From positions 1 to 64,000 of the forward strand of contig JAFDGA010000006.1 of the NCBI GenBank assembly GCA_019309545.1: DNA of 64,000 bases, read 5' to 3'. The notes below the pieces were generated by a model. The model was not told the DNA's origin. It did no database searches and saw only the letters and a program-made list of their open reading frames with translations. The DNA is from Deltaproteobacteria bacterium (GTDB taxonomy: Bacteria > Desulfobacterota > Desulfobaccia > Desulfobaccales > Desulfobaccaceae). The translations under genes were made by a program, and so were the position numbers. This document shows positions 11,772 to 45,399 of this stretch, in pieces. Each line of letters opens with the position of its first letter. Position 1 is the first letter of the stretch.

Positions 11772-13802
11772 ATGCTTAGAAAGGTTGCGGCAATGATCTT
11801 TTTTCGGAAACCCGAGGATGAACGAGCCCCTACTGGCAAGGAGTTAGCTGACCTGCGAGTTGCTATTCAGAAGGCCCAACTGCCCGATTATGTGGCTAGC
11901 GCGGCCAGAAAAGAATTGGAACGGCTGGAAAAAACTGATCCCGCGGTAGCCGAATACTCGATTGGCCTCAATTACCTGGATTATCTAATCTCCCTGCCTT
12001 GGAACCAATTTACTGAAGACAACTTGGATCTGAAGCGGGCCGAGCGCATTCTGGAGTCCAAACATTATGGTCTCCAGCACGTCAAGGAAAGGGTGTTGGA
12101 ATATTTAGCGGTCCGCACTCTGTGCAGCATCCAAACTTCTCGGGTACTGGTGGTGGATGACGAAGAGATCGCCCGCCACAACCTGGAATATATTTTGCGA
12201 AAAGAGGGCCATCAGGTGGCCACCGCCGCCAACGGCGTGGAGGCCCTGGATCAGGTCAAATCCCATGATTTTGATCTGGTCCTCACCGACTTGAAGATGG
12301 ACCGGATGGATGGCCTGCAGTTGCTGGAATCGGTGAAACGACTCTCCCCTCATACCGAAATCATCATGGTTACCGGTTATGCTACGGTCACCACCGCGGT
12401 GGACGCCCTGCGCAAAGGCGCGGCGCATTATCTGTCCAAACCGATCAAACTGGATGAGTTGCGGGAGACGGTCCGGGAAATCATCGATCGCAAACGGCAT
12501 ATGCAGATGGCCCGGGGGCCGATTCTGTGTTTCGCCGGCCCCCCCGGCACTGGCAAAACCTCGATGGGACAGGCCATCGCCGAAGCCCTGGAACGCAAGT
12601 TCGTACGCATGTCCCTGGCCGGGTTGCGTGACGAGGCCGAACTTCGAGGCCACCGCCGCACCTACGTTGGGGCCATGCCAGGCAGGATTATTAATGAAAT
12701 AAAGCGCTTGGAGGTAAAAAATCCGGTCTTTATGTTGGATGAAATCGATAAGATCGGGCAGGACTTCCGGGGGGATCCTGCTTCCATTTTGCTAGAAATT
12801 CTGGACCCGGAACAGAACCATCATTTTATTGACCATTATGTGGATCTGCCCTTTGATCTGTCCGGGGTGATGTTTATCACTACCGCCAATGTTGTGGGAA
12901 ATCTGCCCTTACCGCTCCTGGATCGGTTAGAAGTCATTAATTTCCCTGGTTATACCGAGGGTGAGAAGAAAAAGATCGCCAAGAATTATCTGATTCCCCG
13001 CCAGCTCAGAGACTCCGGTCTGACCCAGTTAAGCCTGGAGTTTACCGATGAGGCTATTATCAAGATCATCCGGGACTATACCCGGGAGGCTGGTCTGAGA
13101 AATTTAGAGCGGGAGATTGCCATGATCTGCCGCAAATTGGCCCGGATCTGTTTGCGTGACAAGGCGGTATCCTGTCCTACTATGGTAGATGAGGTTCTGG
13201 TTGAACGGTTTTTGGGGCCGAGAAAGTTCAGTTACGGGGTGGCAGAAAGCGAAAGACGACTGGGAGTGACCACCGGCCTGGTCTGGACCGAGCTCGGCGG
13301 GGAAATCATCTCGGTGGAAGCGACCCGGATGCGAGGCAATAAGCAACTTATTCTGACCGGTTCCCTAGGAAGTGTACTCCAGGAATCGGCGCAAACCGCC
13401 ATGAGTTATATCCGAAGCCATGCGGAGCAATTTCAGATCCCCCCTGATTTTTTTACCACCAGTGATATCCATATTCATATCCCTTCCGGAGCCATACCCA
13501 AAGAAGGCCCGTCCTCGGGGATTACCATTGCTCTGGCCCTGCTTTCACTGTTGACCGGGCGGCCGGCCCGGCAGGATGTGGCCCTCTCTGGGGAGCTGAC
13601 CTTGAATGGCCGCCTGTTGCCGGTCAGCGGCATTCGCGAAAAGATTATGGCCGCTCAGCGGGCTGGAATCAAAACGGTGATATTTCCTAAGCAGAATGAG
13701 GTAGATATTAATAATCTGGAGGAGGAAGTCAAAAAAGGGCTGGAAATTGTGTTGGCGGAAGAAATACCGCCAATCATTGATCTGGTGCTGCTACCCGCAT
13801 GA
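11772..13802 (+). CDS. Lon-type ATP-dependent protease with inserted response-regulator receiver domain
   Basis: Residues 20-118 match the helical region before the Lon ATPase (LISLPW, HYGL..VKERVLEYLAV). At the point where ordinary Lon continues into its Walker A strand, a complete receiver domain is inserted (about 123-240; acid pair D129/D130, phospho-acceptor D173, T201, K223). Lon then resumes: Walker A GPPGTGKTS (256-264), Walker B LDEID (322-326), sensor-2 region TREAGLRNLERE, and a full S16 protease domain with catalytic S581 (GPSSG) and K624 (REK), 43 residues apart as in E. coli Lon. The Lon N-terminal substrate-binding domain, about 240 residues, is missing. All catalytic residues are kept, so an active peptidase gated by phosphorylation is plausible. 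The true start may be the ATG at 11793. Ends 9 bases from the convergent NtrC-type gene. Confidence 0.88.
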   Translation: MLRKVAAMIFFRKPEDERAPTGKELADLRVAIQKAQLPDYVASAARKELERLEKTDPAVAEYSIGLNYLDYLISLPWNQFTEDNLDLKRAERILESKHYGLQHVKERVLEYLAVRTLCSIQTSRVLVVDDEEIARHNLEYILRKEGHQVATAANGVEALDQVKSHDFDLVLTDLKMDRMDGLQLLESVKRLSPHTEIIMVTGYATVTTAVDALRKGAAHYLSKPIKLDELRETVREIIDRKRHMQMARGPILCFAGPPGTGKTSMGQAIAEALERKFVRMSLAGLRDEAELRGHRRTYVGAMPGRIINEIKRLEVKNPVFMLDEIDKIGQDFRGDPASILLEILDPEQNHHFIDHYVDLPFDLSGVMFITTANVVGNLPLPLLDRLEVINFPGYTEGEKKKIAKNYLIPRQLRDSGLTQLSLEFTDEAIIKIIRDYTREAGLRNLEREIAMICRKLARICLRDKAVSCPTMVDEVLVERFLGPRKFSYGVAESERRLGVTTGLVWTELGGEIISVEATRMRGNKQLILTGSLGSVLQESAQTAMSYIRSHAEQFQIPPDFFTTSDIHIHIPSGAIPKEGPSSGITIALALLSLLTGRPARQDVALSGELTLNGRLLPVSGIREKIMAAQRAGIKTVIFPKQNEVDINNLEEEVKKGLEIVLAEEIPPIIDLVLLPA

Positions 13803-13811
13803 ATAAGGTCC

Positions 13812-15167
13812 TCAAGCCTCTATGCCGTACCGCTTCAGTTTCCGCCACAGGGAGACCCGATCAATCCCTAAGACCTCTGAGGTCCGGGTTTTATTGCCGT
13901 CCATCTGATTCAAGACCCAAAGAATATAATCTTTCTCATTTTCTTCCAGGGTCTGAAATTCCCGCTTCTGGCGACGCTGCAGTTGAAAGCCCTGTTGCTG
14001 CAAGTCGGCCGAGAGATGCTGCACTTCAATAGTCGAGCCATTGCAAAGGGTCACCGCTCGTTCGATGATATTCTCCAGTTCCCGGATGTTGCCGGGGAAT
14101 TCATAGTTCATCAGAATATCCATTACTTCGTCAGAAATTCCTCTAATATCTTTGCCTTGGGTCTGAGAAAACTTTTTTAAAAAATTATAGCTCAACAGCG
14201 GGATGTCATCTTTCCGGGCCCCCAGAGGCGGTAGTTCTAAGGTAATAACATTAAGTCGGTAATAAAGGTCCTGCCGGAAGCGGTTGTGTTCCACCTCTCG
14301 TTTCAAGTCTTTATTGGTAGCGGCCAGGATGCGGATATCCACTGGAATCTCAGCAGTCCCCCCGACCCGCATCAGGTTCTTTTCCTGGAGGACGCGGAGC
14401 AGCTTAACCTGCATGGCCAGAGGCATATCACCGATCTCATCCAGGAGCACCGTGCCTCCCGAGGCTACTTCCAATAAGCCTCTTTTAATTCCCCGGGCCC
14501 CGGTGAAGGCTTCCTTCTCATGGCCAAAGAGTTCATTGGCCAGTAGTTCTTCACTAAACGAACCGCAGTTCAAGGCCAGGAAGCGTTTTTCGGCCCTGGG
14601 ACTCAACTGATGAATGGCTTTGGCCACCAGCTCTTTGCCAGTGCCGGTTTCTCCCAGAATGAGCACGGTGCAATCGGTCGGGGCAATCTGTTCGATGGTC
14701 TTGCGTAACTCTTCGATTTTGGGGGTTTTGCCAATCAACTGCGGCAGCCCTTCCTGAGTTTTTACCTGCCGCCGTAATTCGCTGACTTCCTGCCGGAGCC
14801 ATCTTTTTTCCAGGGCCTTGCGTACCAGGATGCGCAGTTCATCAATCTTATGAGGTTTGGGGAGATAGTGATAAGCTCCTTTCTGCATGGCTTCCACCGC
14901 AGTGCCAACCGTGGCATAGCCGGTAATCATCACCACTTCGGTATCCGGATAGAGTTCTTTGGTACGCTCCAAAACCTCCATGCCGTCCACTTGCTGCATA
15001 CGCAGATCAGTCAGGACCAGGTCAAACTCGGATTTTTCCAGTTCCTGGAGAGCCCGAACGCCGCTTTCTACCGCGACAGTGTCATACCCTTCCTTACTCA
15101 GAACATAATCCAGATTTTCTCTGGCGATTTTTTCATCATCAACGATCATAATTCGCGCTGGCCGCAT
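13812..15167 (-). CDS. NtrC-family sigma54-dependent response regulator
   Basis: Receiver domain (1-120; D10/D11, phospho-acceptor D54), AAA+ central domain (about 140-370) with Walker A GETGTGKE and Walker B LLDEIG, and a Fis-type helix-turn-helix at the C-terminus (TSEVLGIDRVSLWRKLKRYG). It would activate sigma54 promoters when phosphorylated. The sigma54-contact loop reads EAFTGA rather than GAFTGA. Its receiver is about half identical by eye to the receiver inside the neighbouring Lon protease. The start overlaps the end of the kinase gene by 29 bases, so kinase and regulator form one operon, convergent with the Lon-receiver gene. A sigma54 promoter lies at 17623-17640. Confidence 0.92.
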   Translation of the reverse strand: MRPARIMIVDDEKIARENLDYVLSKEGYDTVAVESGVRALQELEKSEFDLVLTDLRMQQVDGMEVLERTKELYPDTEVVMITGYATVGTAVEAMQKGAYHYLPKPHKIDELRILVRKALEKRWLRQEVSELRRQVKTQEGLPQLIGKTPKIEELRKTIEQIAPTDCTVLILGETGTGKELVAKAIHQLSPRAEKRFLALNCGSFSEELLANELFGHEKEAFTGARGIKRGLLEVASGGTVLLDEIGDMPLAMQVKLLRVLQEKNLMRVGGTAEIPVDIRILAATNKDLKREVEHNRFRQDLYYRLNVITLELPPLGARKDDIPLLSYNFLKKFSQTQGKDIRGISDEVMDILMNYEFPGNIRELENIIERAVTLCNGSTIEVQHLSADLQQQGFQLQRRQKREFQTLEENEKDYILWVLNQMDGNKTRTSEVLGIDRVSLWRKLKRYGIEA

Positions 15168-16629
15168 CGCTGGATTCTCTCCCTTCCGCTATCTCCGTAA
15201 AACAGGGTACCCGAATAATAAATCGGGTGCCCTCCCCCACTTTGCTTTCCACGGCGACGGTGCCGTGGTGTTTTTCGATGATGCCGTAAACAATAGACAG
15301 CCCCAAACCAGTCCCCGAACCAACCTCTTTAGTGGTAAAAAACGGATCAAATATCCGTTCCCTGGTCTCCTTGGGAATACCTTTCCCCGTGTCCTCCACG
15401 GTGATCACGCCCTCTTGGGTGGCTGGATCGAGCTGAGCCGCTATCTTGATTTCCCCGGGCAGTTGGTCGATGGCCTGGATGGCGTTCATAATTAAATTGA
15501 GAAAAACCTCCTGCATCTGTTGGGCATCTAAAATAAGGATCAGATCCGGAGGAACCTCATCCACAATCTCAATCCCGGTCGGCACCTGACTGGAAACCAG
15601 TCTGATGGAACGCTCTACTACTTCATGGAGTGGCGTAGGTTTGAGGGCAAATTCCCGGACCCGGGAGAAATCCAGTAGTCCTCTGACTATATCCCGGGCC
15701 CGATTGACTTCTTGTTCAACATTGGTCAGCATTTTTCTAAAGAATTCAATATTACCCTGGTTTAATTCCTCTAAGAGTATCTGGCAGGAGGTAGAAATAT
15801 TATTCAAAGGGTTGTTTAGCTGATGAGCCACCCCAGAGGTCAACACGCCCAGAGAAGACATTTTTTTGGACTGCACCAACTGATCCTGCCGCTTTTCCAG
15901 TTCTTGCACCATGCGGTTGAAGGCCTCTACGACCCGCTGGGTCTCATCCCGCGTATTTAACACCGGCAGTGGCTTATAATTTCCCTGGGCGATGCGCTCG
16001 GTCGTTTTTTCAATGGTGGCCAGCGGGCGGATGATCTTGCGGCTGACCACAATCACTAAAAACACCCCCAAGCCGAGGAATACCCCGATGGAGACCAAGA
16101 GCTGACCTTTTAATTGCCTAATGATCTCCAGAATCTTTTGGCGTTCGAAGGTGACCAACTGTTTAGAAATGTTTACGAGTTCCTTGCCTTTTTCCCGTAA
16201 TTTTTCTTCTAATAGCTCATAGCTTGGATTGCCCCTGGCTATTTCGTTGTTAGAAATCTGATCCATTAGTTGTTTATAATCCAGGAGTCCTTGCTGAATT
16301 ATATGAAGCCGAGGCGCGCCTGACAAACCACGTAACTCTGGTCCGATTTTATCAAGAATTTCTAAACCTAATTGGATATAGCGTTGATTTTCCTTCAGAT
16401 CATCCGGCGAACCATACAGGAGATAATTTTTTTCATACCTGCGGATTTCCAGAGCAATATTACTGAAGTCGTCTGCCTTTTCCACAAAATGCTGTTTTAA
16501 TTCAATTACTTGTAAATAATGATAGGAGATCAGGGCGATGAAGCCGATGGCTAACATGCCGGTCGTCAGGCCAACAATCACCTTCTGCCGAATATTTAAA
16601 TATAAGCGAAACTTAGACCCAGCCATCAA
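15139..16629 (-). CDS. Membrane sensor histidine kinase, partner of the NtrC-type regulator
   Basis: Transmembrane helix (about 13-33), an extracytoplasmic all-helical sensor of about 140 residues (35-175, resembling CHASE3-type four-helix bundles), second transmembrane helix (about 178-197), HAMP, HisKA and HATPase_c with DTGKGIP and [11 protein letters not shown]. The phospho-acceptor is H269, but the next residue is Gln (AHQLNNP) where most kinases of this group have Glu, a position that influences phosphatase or kinase activity. Ends within the regulator gene (29-base overlap). No small-molecule pocket is evident, so the stimulus is unknown. By receiver similarity it may also phosphorylate the Lon-receiver protein. 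Confidence 0.9.
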
Positions 16630-16790
16630 TAATTAGCTCCAAATTTATTTGAACCTCAAGTCCTCACGCCAGGGAGCATTGGCCCAGACTATATAAATAA
16701 ATAATACACTTATACTGGTGGCTTGGCAAGATGGCCCGGTTCCTTCCCACGCAAGGTTATACGATTATTAAATGACAGTTTTTATAAAAG

Positions 16791-16856: not shown

Positions 16857-17363
16857 ATGCGAAGCAACTTGCAGAGATCTCTGATCGGTCTGGGTCTGGT
16901 AATCATCTTAATAAGTGCTTGTGAACCCAAACAGAGTGGAGTCAAGGGGTTAAGCAACCTGTTATGGGGACGCTATCAGGAACAGATCAAACTGTCGCGG
17001 GAAGACGCGGTGGCTAAATATAATTATTGTCCTACCGGCGGCTGTGTGGTGCGCCTGGAGGAGGTCGAGATCAGGCCAAAGTGGGTGAAGCCCGGCGACT
17101 CCATCACTCTTACCACTTCGTATACCATCCTTACCCCCGAGAAGCTGGCTATTCCGGTAACTATCAGCCGGGCGGTGCGCTACCAGGGGCAAAGCGTGGG
17201 TCAGACCAAGGTAACCGAGACCCGCACCCCCAACGGCACCTGGGAAAATCAGGTGGATATCAATCTTCCCCCTCAGGCCGAGCCGGGAACCTATACCCTG
17301 GTGGTCAAAGTCACCACCGGTTACGGCATGGCCCAAAAGAGCGCCACCTTCACCGTGTGGTAA
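16857..17363 (+). CDS. Lipoprotein with Ig-like/beta-sandwich domain
   Basis: 168 residues. Lipoprotein signal peptide with lipobox LISAC, so the mature protein begins at C22. The rest (about 65-168) alternates short beta strands with the look of a CARDB/Ig-like sandwich (RPKWVKPGDSITLTTSYTI ... EPGTYTLVVKVTTGYG). A CPTGGC pair at about residues 58-63 may form a disulfide or bind a ligand. Divergent from the kinase operon, so it could be an envelope component of the signal that kinase senses; that is inference only. Confidence 0.75.
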   Translation: MRSNLQRSLIGLGLVIILISACEPKQSGVKGLSNLLWGRYQEQIKLSREDAVAKYNYCPTGGCVVRLEEVEIRPKWVKPGDSITLTTSYTILTPEKLAIPVTISRAVRYQGQSVGQTKVTETRTPNGTWENQVDINLPPQAEPGTYTLVVKVTTGYGMAQKSATFTVW

Positions 17364-17622
17364 CTTTCTTTGGCCCGGGCCGGTCCCAAATAATCTAATC
17401 CTCAATCAGCTACCAGCCTTACCACGGTTCAATAAATCCAAGGGAGCAGAAGCTTAGAGAGCTTGACCAAAAAGCTGATCGGCCGAATGAAGCTTAATAC
17501 CGAACGAATACTTTGTTTGCTTTTAATGTTTTATTTTCTTAACATATGTTTAATTTGCTTAAAATGCACTTATAAGTCTAAATTAATAGCTAATAATATC
17601 ATTAACATAGCAAGAATTTAGT

Positions 17623-17640
17623 TTGGCACTTTTCTTGCTT
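17623..17640 (+). promoter_or_regulatory. Sigma54 (RpoN) promoter for the exported protein at 17836
   Basis: TTGGCAC at 17623-17629 and TTGCTT at 17635-17640 match the -24/-12 consensus (TGGCAC-N5-TTGC), with the GG and GC dinucleotides separated by exactly ten bases. Predicted start near 17650, giving a leader of about 185 bases. It is the best sigma54 site I saw in the intergenic regions and lies in the same locus as an NtrC-type regulator. Confidence 0.82.
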
Positions 17641-17687
17641 AATTATTAGAGAGAGAGGTTTATTTTAACTTAATATTAATAGGTAAT

Positions 17688-17747
17688 ACCCCCGTGCCTG
17701 GATCTGCCCAGTTTTGGACTGCGGCAGACCATGTCTTAACCCGGGGT
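17688..17747 (+). promoter_or_regulatory. Structured 5' leader RNA element
   Basis: Within the sigma54 transcript leader. An outer stem (about 17689-17694 with 17742-17747, CCCCG/CGGGG) encloses an inner stem TCTGCC (17703-17708) with GGCAGA (17723-17728), extended by CAGT/ACTG around a five-base loop and by GG/CC below a bulged A. The octamer GTGCCTGG occurs at 17694 and again at 17746. It does not match a riboswitch class I know. Confidence 0.45.
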
Positions 17748-17835
17748 GCCTGGGAAAAAGGATAGTATCAGCCAGAGCAAGAAGGGAAAATATAACTTAA
17801 CCGGTTAGTATGGCAAAAGCGAAAGGTGAGTCGAG

Positions 17836-18339
17836 ATGAAAAAAAATGTTCTGATCTTACTAATGGCGTTGGCGCTGGTGGCGTTGGGAGTTGCGGTAGC
17901 GTCGGCGGGTCCCTGGGTTGAAAAAGCCACCGGCGGTGGGACTAATAGTATCAATATACCCATTTATGGTAAAACGTCCCTGGCCTTCACCGCCCAAAAA
18001 GATAAGGACGGCAATGTCAAGGGTCAGGCCCAGTTCAACATCCACGGAAACCCCAATTGCGGTAGGTTTCATGTCAAAGTCCAATGTCTACGGGTGGAAG
18101 GAAATGAGGCCTGGATTGGGGGGACCATTATCAGAGCCAAAAACCCCAAGCTAGTGGGCAAAGTGATCGTCTGGCAAGTGGCGGATAATGGCCAGGGAGC
18201 CGGATCTGATCCGGATCAGGTGAGCGCTTTCCCATTTGCAGCAAACCCGTGCCAGTGCATGTGTTGGCCTGACCTGGAATTATTCGATTGGCCTAACGGT
18301 AATATTCAGGTAAAGGAAAGGCGTCTTGATAATAATTAA
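17836..18339 (+). CDS. Small exported protein of unknown function, sigma54-controlled
   Basis: 167 residues with a clear signal peptide (KK head, hydrophobic core, cleavage probably after ASA at residue 25). The mature part is rich in Gly, Asn and Asp, with a beta-rich look, and has paired cysteines in NPNCGRF, VQCLRVEG and a cluster CQCMC near residue 140, which could form disulfides or bind metal. I do not recognise a family. The ATG follows an AAAGGTGAG ribosome binding site. It is the first gene behind the sigma54 promoter at 17623 and ends before a terminator hairpin serving the opposite strand. Confidence 0.75.
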   Translation: MKKNVLILLMALALVALGVAVASAGPWVEKATGGGTNSINIPIYGKTSLAFTAQKDKDGNVKGQAQFNIHGNPNCGRFHVKVQCLRVEGNEAWIGGTIIRAKNPKLVGKVIVWQVADNGQGAGSDPDQVSAFPFAANPCQCMCWPDLELFDWPNGNIQVKERRLDNN

Positions 18340-18355
18340 ATCTGCTTGGCTTTCC

Positions 18356-18393
18356 AAAAATTGCCCAAATCAGCCGCTGGCTGGTTTGGGCAA
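18356..18393 (-). terminator. Intrinsic terminator of fabF
   Basis: A 15-bp stem (18361-18375 with 18379-18393, one G-T wobble) with a three-base loop, followed on the minus strand by five T (18356-18360). It lies about 95 bases past the fabF stop codon; on the plus strand it could also slow transcription leaving the exported-protein gene. Confidence 0.85.
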
Positions 18394-18486
18394 TGCCAAC
18401 CAGCTAGACCCTCGCCTAAATCTCATCTCGGGGTAAGCCCAAGACCAGAGAAAATTTTTTCTCCAACCACAACGCTCACCGCTTTC

Positions 18487-19833
18487 TTACGCTTCATAGC
18501 GCTGGAACACCAGAGTGGCGTTGGTCCCACCGAAGCCGAAGGAATTGGACAGGGCATAGCGCAGGGATACGGCGCGGGCTTGGTTTTTGACAAAATTGAG
18601 GCCGTCACACTCGGGATCCACCACTTCCAGGTTAATGGTCGGCGGCACCCGACCTTGTTTAAGGCTCAGTATGGTAAAGATCGCTTCCACCGCTCCGGCT
18701 GCGCCCAACAGGTGGCCGGTCATGGATTTGGTGGCGCTGACCAGCGGGCCCGGCGAGGAATTACGGGTCAACAGCTTGATGGCCTGGGCCTCGTTGCGGT
18801 CTCCCACCGGGGTAGATGTGGCGTGGGGATTGATATAAGCCACTTCCTGGGCGCTGATACCGGCATCTTTCAGGGCCACCTCCATGCAGCGGATGGCTCC
18901 TTCCAGGTCAGGATCGGTGATGTGCCGGGCATCGCCGGTCATCCCGAAGCCGATGATTTCGGCATAGATTTTTGCTCCCCGCTGCCGGGCATGTTCGAGC
19001 TCCTCCAGGATCAGGATACCAGCCCCATCGGCCATGACAAAACCCCGGTGCTCCTGATCAAAAGGACGACTGGCCTGGGCCGGCCGGTCATTAAAGCCGG
19101 TGGCCAGAGCCCCCATGCGATAAAAGCCGGTCATGGTGAGCGGGGTGATGGCGGCCTCGGCCCCACCGCTGGCCATCAGTTCGGCTTCCCCCAACTGGAT
19201 GGACCGGAAGGCGGCGCCGATGGCATGGGCACCGGCGGCACAGGCAGTGGAAAGGGCCGCGTTGGGACCCTTGGCCCGGAAACTGATCGAGACATTGCCG
19301 GCAGCCAGGTTAGGCAACAGTCTGGGCACCAGAAACGGCGATATTTTCTTTACGCCCTCGTACAGCAATTTCTCATGCTGTTCTTCCCAGCTGCTGACCC
19401 CGCCCATGCCGCTGGCGATAATGATCCCGACCCGGTTGGGGTCTTCAGCTTCCAGATCGAGGCCGCTGTCATTAATCGCCTCCAGGCTGGCGGCCAGGGC
19501 GTATTGGGCAAACCGGTCGGTGTATTTGAGCAGCTTCAAGTCTTCTTTATCCAGGTTCTGTTTGCGAGCCGTCATCAACTCTTTCAGGTCAAAGTTCTTT
19601 ACTTCCCCGGCGATCAGGGGGAAATCCTTGGGAGCCTTGAAGCGCTGGGAAAATTCCTCCAGATCTTCCCCGAACCGGGTAACCTGCGTGACCCCGGATT
19701 CGCCGGCCAGTAATCGCTTCCAGGTGGTAGGCACTTCATTGCCTAAAGGAGAGACGAGGCCGAGTCCGGTTACTACCACCCGCCGGAATCCCACGGTTTT
19801 GCGAATCTTCAATGCCATTCCTCCAAATCTCAT
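18487..19833 (-). CDS. fabF: 3-oxoacyl-[acyl-carrier-protein] synthase II (beta-ketoacyl-ACP synthase)
   Basis: 448 residues with the complete condensing-enzyme fold. Catalytic Cys in STACAAGAHA, the two catalytic histidines in NPHATSTP and KSMTGHLLGA, and the terminal NSFGFGGTNA. It extends acyl chains from malonyl-ACP in fatty-acid synthesis in the cytoplasm. The N-terminus is uncertain: ATGs at 19833 and 19818 are both possible, and the only GGAGGA motif is directly against the second one, too close to work well. It stands alone rather than in a fab operon (no acpP or fabD nearby), so a specialised or second KAS II is possible. Confidence 0.93.
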   Translation of the reverse strand: MRFGGMALKIRKTVGFRRVVVTGLGLVSPLGNEVPTTWKRLLAGESGVTQVTRFGEDLEEFSQRFKAPKDFPLIAGEVKNFDLKELMTARKQNLDKEDLKLLKYTDRFAQYALAASLEAINDSGLDLEAEDPNRVGIIIASGMGGVSSWEEQHEKLLYEGVKKISPFLVPRLLPNLAAGNVSISFRAKGPNAALSTACAAGAHAIGAAFRSIQLGEAELMASGGAEAAITPLTMTGFYRMGALATGFNDRPAQASRPFDQEHRGFVMADGAGILILEELEHARQRGAKIYAEIIGFGMTGDARHITDPDLEGAIRCMEVALKDAGISAQEVAYINPHATSTPVGDRNEAQAIKLLTRNSSPGPLVSATKSMTGHLLGAAGAVEAIFTILSLKQGRVPPTINLEVVDPECDGLNFVKNQARAVSLRYALSNSFGFGGTNATLVFQRYEA

Positions 19834-44028: not shown

Positions 44029-45399
44029 CTAGACATTCAGATGATATTTCTTCAGCTTATACTGCAACAGGCTTTTGGTAATTCCCAGCAGTTCGGCGGC
44101 CCGAACCTGGACCTGGCCGGAATGTTCCAAGGCCCGCCGGATCATCAGTTCTTCAATGCGTTCCAGGGCTTCGGGTAAGGGGGTGTTGAGGGGGACCAGG
44201 CGGTCAATGTCAAACTCGCTTTCGGGCCGGGTGGTGGCCAGATTGGGGGGCAAATCAGCCGGAGTAATGACGTCGCCACTGCGAAGAATTACGGCCCGTT
44301 CGATGACATTTTCCAATTCCCGGACATTACCCGGCCAAGAATGCCGGGTTAAGATTCTCATGGTCTCCGGATCCACCCGGACTTCGCCCTGAGCGTTTTC
44401 CTGGGTATATTTTTGAATAAAATGAGTCACGAGGAGCGGGATATCCTCGGGCCGCTGGCGCAGCGGCGGAATCTCCAGGTGGACCACATTAAGGCGGTAA
44501 AACAGGTCTTCTCGAAAATTCCCTTCGTCGACTTCGGCTTTTAAATCCCGATTAGAAGCGGCCACTAGGCGCACGTCCACCCGCAGGGTACGCGATCCGC
44601 CTACCCGCTCAAACTCCATTTCCTGCAGGACTCGCAGTAATTTGACCTGCAGGGCCGGAGACATCTCGGTCACTTCGTCCAGGAACAGGGTGCCGCCGTC
44701 GGCCAGCTCAAACCGGCCTTTGCGGAGGGCCACGGCGTGGGTGAAGGCACCTTTTTCATGGCCGAAAAGCTCACTTTCCAGCAGGGTCTCGGTCAAGGCC
44801 CCGCAATTTACCGAGATAAAGGGCCTTTGGCTGCGGGGGCTGCGTTGATGAATGGCCCGGGCGATCAGCTCCTTACCAGTGCCACTTTCGCCAGTGATCA
44901 GGACCGTTACCCGAGTTTGGGCCACTTTTTCTACCAGGGCAAAGATCTCCTGCATGGCCCGGCTGTTGCCGACAATATTCTCGAACCGGTACTTTTGGGC
45001 CAGGTCCTGACGGAGACGTCGGTTCTCGTCCAGAAGATGCCGTAATTCCAAGGCCTTGGCAATAGTGACGAGAATCTCCTCGTTTTTGAAGGGCTTGGTG
45101 ATGTAGTCGAAGGCCCCTTTTTTCATGGCCTCCACCGCTTTTTCCACCGTGCCGAAGGCGGTCATGATGATTACCGGCAAGTCGGGATTAAGGTGCTGGA
45201 TTTCTTCCATCAATTCGATGCCGCTGACTCTGGGCATTTTCATATCGGTGATGATCAGATCCAGATCATTATGGCGGACAATCTTCTGGGCTTCGGTGGC
45301 GCTTTCGGCGGTCAGCACTTCGTATCCAGCCCCGGAAAGCAAGGCCTCCATGACCAGCAGATAATTTTTTTCATCATCAACAACCAGGATGGTATCCAT
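44029..45399 (-). CDS. NtrC-family sigma54-dependent response regulator
   Basis: 456 residues: receiver (phospho-acceptor D52; acid pair D8/D9), AAA+ domain with Walker A GESGTGKE, Walker B LFLDEVT, and a C-terminal Fis-type helix-turn-helix ([19 protein letters not shown]). The sigma54-contact loop reads GAFTHA, a change from GAFTGA at the fifth residue. The likely partner is the kinase at 46254-47699, which is on the same strand, but an 850-base stretch with a photolyase remnant separates the two genes. This regulator would act on sigma54 promoters elsewhere. Confidence 0.92.

Follow-up and report, generated by a model that had tools for sequence, protein, structure and literature searches.

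A secreted-protein gene that appears to have been acquired by this lineage, and to be transcribed on its own, probably stands under a genuine sigma-54 promoter at positions 17623-17640 of the window (the whole stretch of DNA that was analyzed, 64 kb), with the NtrC-type protein encoded nearby as the best single candidate for its activator. We assign this reading a probability of about 0.72. The features on which the argument draws are the following.

13812-15167, minus strand: NtrC/AtoC-type response regulator with receiver, sigma-54 activation AAA+ and Fis-type HTH domains; candidate activator
15139-16629, minus strand: sensor histidine kinase in the membrane, with HAMP, HisKA and HATPase domains; it pairs with the NtrC-type protein and is conserved across the order
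16701-16729, minus strand: sigma-70-like promoter of the kinase/regulator operon (TTGCCA-N17-TATTAT), conserved in three genomes (alignment, by eye)
16857-17363, plus strand: lipoprotein gene, divergent from the kinase and conserved across the order; forms the left-hand limit of the lineage-specific DNA
17364-18486, no strand assigned: lineage-specific DNA separating the lipoprotein gene from fabF, unique among the genomes searched
17541-17577, no strand assigned: two perfect 10-bp palindromes, candidate activator sites within what chance would give
17623-17640, plus strand: predicted sigma-54 (-24/-12) promoter, 0 mismatches against TGGCAC-N5-TTGCW
17650-17835, plus strand: predicted untranslated leader of ~186 nt; a ribosome-binding site (AGGTGAG) precedes the ATG at 17836
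17836-18339, plus strand: exported-protein gene (167 amino acids); the mature part of the product is a member of an unnamed secreted domain family that also occurs in Bacteroidota
18360-18394, no strand assigned: strong, terminator-like inverted repeat with 16-bp arms and no T-run, just 3′ of the exported-protein gene
18487-19833: fabF, convergent with the exported-protein gene

The letters at 17623-17640 (TTGGCACTTTTCTTGCTT) matched the sigma-54 consensus (TGGCAC-N5-TTGCW, GG-N10-GC; published as TGGCAC-N5-7-TTGCT, PMC12316311) without a single mismatch. The GG of the -24 box (17625-17626) and the GC of the -12 box (17637-17638) are separated by exactly 10 bases and lie in consensus flanks, which bears out the original prediction of TTGGCAC-N5-TTGCTT with exact -24/-12 spacing. 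It was the only perfect match in the 64-kb window, for which first-order Markov shuffles predicted ~0.08 on both strands taken together. When the intergenic region 17364-17835 was shuffled in the same way, a perfect site arose on the plus strand in 2 of 20,000 cases. The whole metagenome-assembled genome (2.43 Mb, 99% complete) contained four perfect sites, two of them intergenic (17623-17640 and L005, the latter 29 bases 5′ of a gene judged by eye to be lpxC-like) and two inside short ORFs that may not be real. When a single mismatch was tolerated, 76 sites were found genome-wide, compared with 23 for the reversed-pattern control; ∼20 of the 76 were intergenic according to a crude ORF call (9 of 30 plus 11 of 46). 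The DNA upstream of the two intergenic perfect sites differed in composition, with 19% GC over 100 bases at 17623-17640 versus 52% at L005, and several of the intergenic one-mismatch sites were also preceded by AT-rich DNA (30-37% GC). Apart from 17623-17640, intergenic sigma-54-like sites were noted at L005 (1501-1516), L019, L136 and L170 (contigs C12, C3, C9 and C40), followed after 29-314 bases by genes that resemble, by eye, those for LpxC, an exported protease, an MFS transporter and an exported protein. Motif and rarity are direct observations, as is the presence in the same genome of rpoN and of 13 full-length sigma-54 activators (plus one weak match). Because the site is the sole perfect match in the window, occupies AT-rich intergenic DNA and faces a gene in a genome that encodes rpoN, it is probably a working sigma-54 promoter. 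As a prediction, the proposed promoter in front of the exported-protein gene is well supported (perfect, rare, intergenic and on the right strand). As a promoter it is of the ordinary, textbook sigma-54 type: it shares TGGCAC-N5-TTGCT, GG-N10-GC, the intergenic and gene-facing position, and the accompanying rpoN and activators with known bacterial examples, and differs from them nowhere in the motif; it is known here by prediction.

The activator that would serve this promoter is a separate matter. All three domains expected of an NtrC-type activator (receiver, AAA+ sigma-54 interaction domain and Fis-type HTH) were present in the product of 13812-15167. Its loop for contact with sigma-54 has the sequence EAFTGA where GAFTGA is expected, i.e., the first glycine is replaced. 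GAFTGA was called invariant in one survey (PMC12316311), and EAFTGA was common to the orthologues in five related genomes, with more distant orthologues carrying GAFTGA. Literature on the NorR G266D exchange was set aside as a guide, as it concerns the second glycine of GAFTGA and EAFTGA alters the first. Of 28 other genomes searched, 20 had a strong match to the kinase; in 18 cases the match was near full length, with 59-84% identity. The pair is adjoined by a Lon protease gene (11772-13802, plus strand), the product of which carries a response-regulator receiver domain, flanked by a short N-terminal part on one side and the AAA+ module on the other; the gene was covered at least partly by aligned DNA in both sister genomes (see below), and a phospho-controlled Lon, if it is one, would be of interest.

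The sister genomes (G001 and G002) were the only ones of the same genus among the relatives returned; the closest relatives that bear a name are MAGs labelled Desulfobacca sp. Both sisters kept the order regulator, kinase, lipoprotein gene, fabF, with 83-84% identity in the kinase. In both, fabF is the immediate neighbor of the lipoprotein gene, at a distance of ∼190 bp (G001) and ∼120 bp (G002), compared with 1.12 kb here, and no counterpart of 17364-18486, promoter and gene included, was present at the syntenic place. This absence was observed directly. Nor did a search of 59 genomes yield DNA relatives of the cassette beyond chance-level matches of 29-41 bp. An orthologous promoter for 17623-17640 was not found in other genomes, and a comparative footprint of the promoter was therefore not possible.

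According to the original prediction, the promoter is a direct target of the nearby NtrC-type protein. In this arrangement, the kinase/NtrC-type pair (13812-16629) would act on the exported-protein gene in the manner of ZraSR on ZraP. ZraSR/ZraP is the zinc-responsive system of enterobacteria, composed of a kinase, an NtrC-type regulator and a periplasmic chaperone. At both loci a membrane kinase and an NtrC-type regulator are encoded close to a gene for a small exported protein that has a sigma-54 promoter, and in enterobacteria ZraR indeed drives zraP from a sigma-54 promoter adjoining its own genes (PMC4987338). They differ in that the divergent sigma-54 promoter arrangement was not seen here: the kinase and the exported-protein gene have a lipoprotein gene between them, the kinase operon has its conserved sigma-70-like promoter and no convincing sigma-54 site was found upstream of it, the exported protein is not of the ZraP family (it matched neither Pfam nor NCBIfam above the cut-off), and the arrangement is not conserved. 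In favor of a direct connection, the regulator gene is only 2.5 kb away and its activator domain and HTH are intact. In addition, local targets are frequent among the response regulators of Desulfovibrio vulgaris: of the 21 for which candidate testing yielded targets, 8 bound DNA upstream of the gene or operon that encodes them and 7 bound an adjacent operon (PMC3333781). A 12-mer with one mismatch was common to 16703-16714 and 17563-17574, which could have pointed to a shared operator. However, a comparable 12-mer arose in 27.5% of shuffles, and the copy at 16703-16714 overlaps the sigma-70-like promoter of the kinase operon; the candidate was rejected, and beyond chance no operator was common to the DNA upstream of the promoter and the DNA upstream of the regulator's own operon. 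Also against it, the genome encodes 12 other full activators, and the window itself contains a second sigma-54 activator domain (44476-44976, minus strand), which is another candidate regulator. The pair is conserved in the two sisters without the gene, and the exported-protein gene is thus not evidently one of its ancestral targets. The comparative evidence therefore weakens the proposed link between promoter and nearby regulator, and direct control by the pair is possible but doubtful. Since response regulators in D. vulgaris so often act locally, the neighbor nevertheless stays the best single guess, leading by proximity as a tentative and unproven candidate.

The two short palindromes upstream of the promoter, described as weak in the original prediction, are real (AACATATGTT at 17541-17550 and ACTTATAAGT at 17568-17577; each 10 bp and perfect), and the qualification was apt because at least two such palindromes arose in 11% of shuffles of the same AT-rich stretch (P = 0.11). 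Neither recurred exactly upstream of the other candidate sigma-54 promoters of the genome. With a predicted start at ∼17650 and the ATG at 17836, the leader would be ∼186 nt long. Its segment 17685-17765, a hairpin region, folded better than most shuffles (z = -2.25); the entire leader did not stand out (z = -1.10). A riboswitch or other known RNA in the leader was considered and dropped, as no Rfam family reached its gathering score, and a lenient Rfam threshold applied to 17364-17850 gave chance matches only. Inside the predicted leader, a GTG-started open frame of 23 codons (17694-17765, plus strand) lies over the hairpin region; it could be due to chance.

It is also conceivable that 17623-17640 is a chance or silent sigma-54 site and that the gene is driven from elsewhere, e.g., from a promoter unrecognized in the AT-rich region. 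The majority of sigma-54-bound sites in E. coli seem to be transcriptionally inactive (PMC4591121), the reversed-pattern control predicts that 3 of every 10 sites with at most one mismatch are spurious, and the AT-rich upstream DNA would be able to host sigma-70 promoters. This has to be set against a site that is perfect, intergenic, on the right strand and near a gene start, and that shuffling reproduced so rarely (the 2 in 20,000 cases given above); moreover, scanning the plus strand of the promoter stretch revealed no sigma-70-like site. We consider a silent site unlikely and continue with a working sigma-54 promoter as the preferred reading.

The product of 17836-18339 was described as small, exported and Cys-rich in the original prediction. 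It is small (167 amino acids) and begins with a typical signal peptide (read by eye: MKKNVLILLMALALVALGVAVASA, followed by GPW...), from which export is predicted. The label Cys-rich holds only mildly, with five Cys residues (75, 84, 139, 141 and 143), one or two of which are kept across the domain family. Neither Pfam nor NCBIfam gave a match above cut-off. A search of plasmids with the protein returned a weak match from Runella rosea (WP_114070704.1, E = 0.1) that aligned well when compared directly, and a profile built from the two sequences found matches in 5 of 396 Bacteroidota genomes (a sample from the phylum of a Bacteroidetes MAG). The resulting seven-sequence alignment had 12 invariant columns, with members 29-39% identical to the window protein, and followed the pattern (A/V)TGGG...F.AQK..G.VKGQ...CLxV..N.AWIGG.I...DNGQG...PDQ...C...GNIQV. 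The window protein conforms to it: the DNG.G...D, C and GN(I/F)...V motifs are present and it aligns overall, so that the family relationship is itself observed. Together with the window protein, the family (DNGQG / GNIQV) comprises L131, L173-L176 and L178. It is a secreted domain family without a Pfam or NCBIfam model, revealed by the window protein. In three of its members, judged by eye, the shared domain is preceded by a C-type-lectin-like one (in the protein checked, PF00059 matched with E = 0.006, below cut-off). The Bacteroidota members appear lipoprotein-like or have such a domain ahead of the shared one, whereas the window protein consists of the shared domain alone and has an additional CQCMC cluster. 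The product is probably beta-rich; a single-sequence model of its fold was too poor to use (pLDDT 38.8).

When the seven-sequence profile was run against 395 genomes of the organism's own phylum, the window protein was the sole match. No homologue was found among the 58 relatives, nor, even with this profile, among about 394 other genomes sampled from the phylum. Weak matches to the protein within the phylum (L068-L074) were discarded, as they look like unrelated frames or signal peptides. Presence of the family in 5 of the 396 Bacteroidota genomes and in none other of the 395 from its own phylum, the two groups in which it was searched, suggests, from sequence comparison, that the exported-protein gene was acquired horizontally, the direction of transfer being inferred. 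As to the vehicle, a mobile element was not supported, as no further copy of the cassette was found in its own genome or in the 58 relatives; viral contigs and phage records contained nothing that would speak for a phage, and plasmids gave only the distant Runella relative. Because other genomes sampled from the phylum lack a homologue of the protein, a gain in this lineage is favored over two losses; that the cassette was instead ancestral to the genus and deleted in both sisters, which could make the promoter an old target of the neighbor, is therefore improbable, even more so than a silent site, despite the fact that the comparison rests on two sister genomes and that ∼1-kb deletions are common.

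The preferred reading, a gained cassette with a working sigma-54 promoter, can be stated as a sequence of steps. Sigma-54 RNA polymerase would sit on the -24/-12 boxes as a closed complex, which would be opened by an activator that is bound further upstream and hydrolyses ATP. The transcript, starting at about 17650, would comprise the leader and then, from the ATG at 17836, the monocistronic secreted-protein gene. Promoter and gene together would constitute a cassette that the lineage gained, probably by horizontal transfer, at a place flanked by the lipoprotein gene and fabF.

What the locus brings to light includes the secreted domain family itself, which has neither a Pfam or NCBIfam model nor an assigned function. 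A bolder reading, which we hold to be rather doubtful, is that a Bacteroidota-like secreted-protein gene was horizontally acquired and wired into the sigma-54 network of its host, possibly capturing the neighboring EAFTGA two-component system; if true, this would exemplify regulatory capture, in which an enhancer-dependent promoter takes control of a foreign gene. Since sigma-54 promoters show hardly any activity unless an activator is present, the newly acquired secreted protein would be under signal control from the outset. In that case the joining of a foreign gene to an enhancer-dependent regulator could be examined at this locus.
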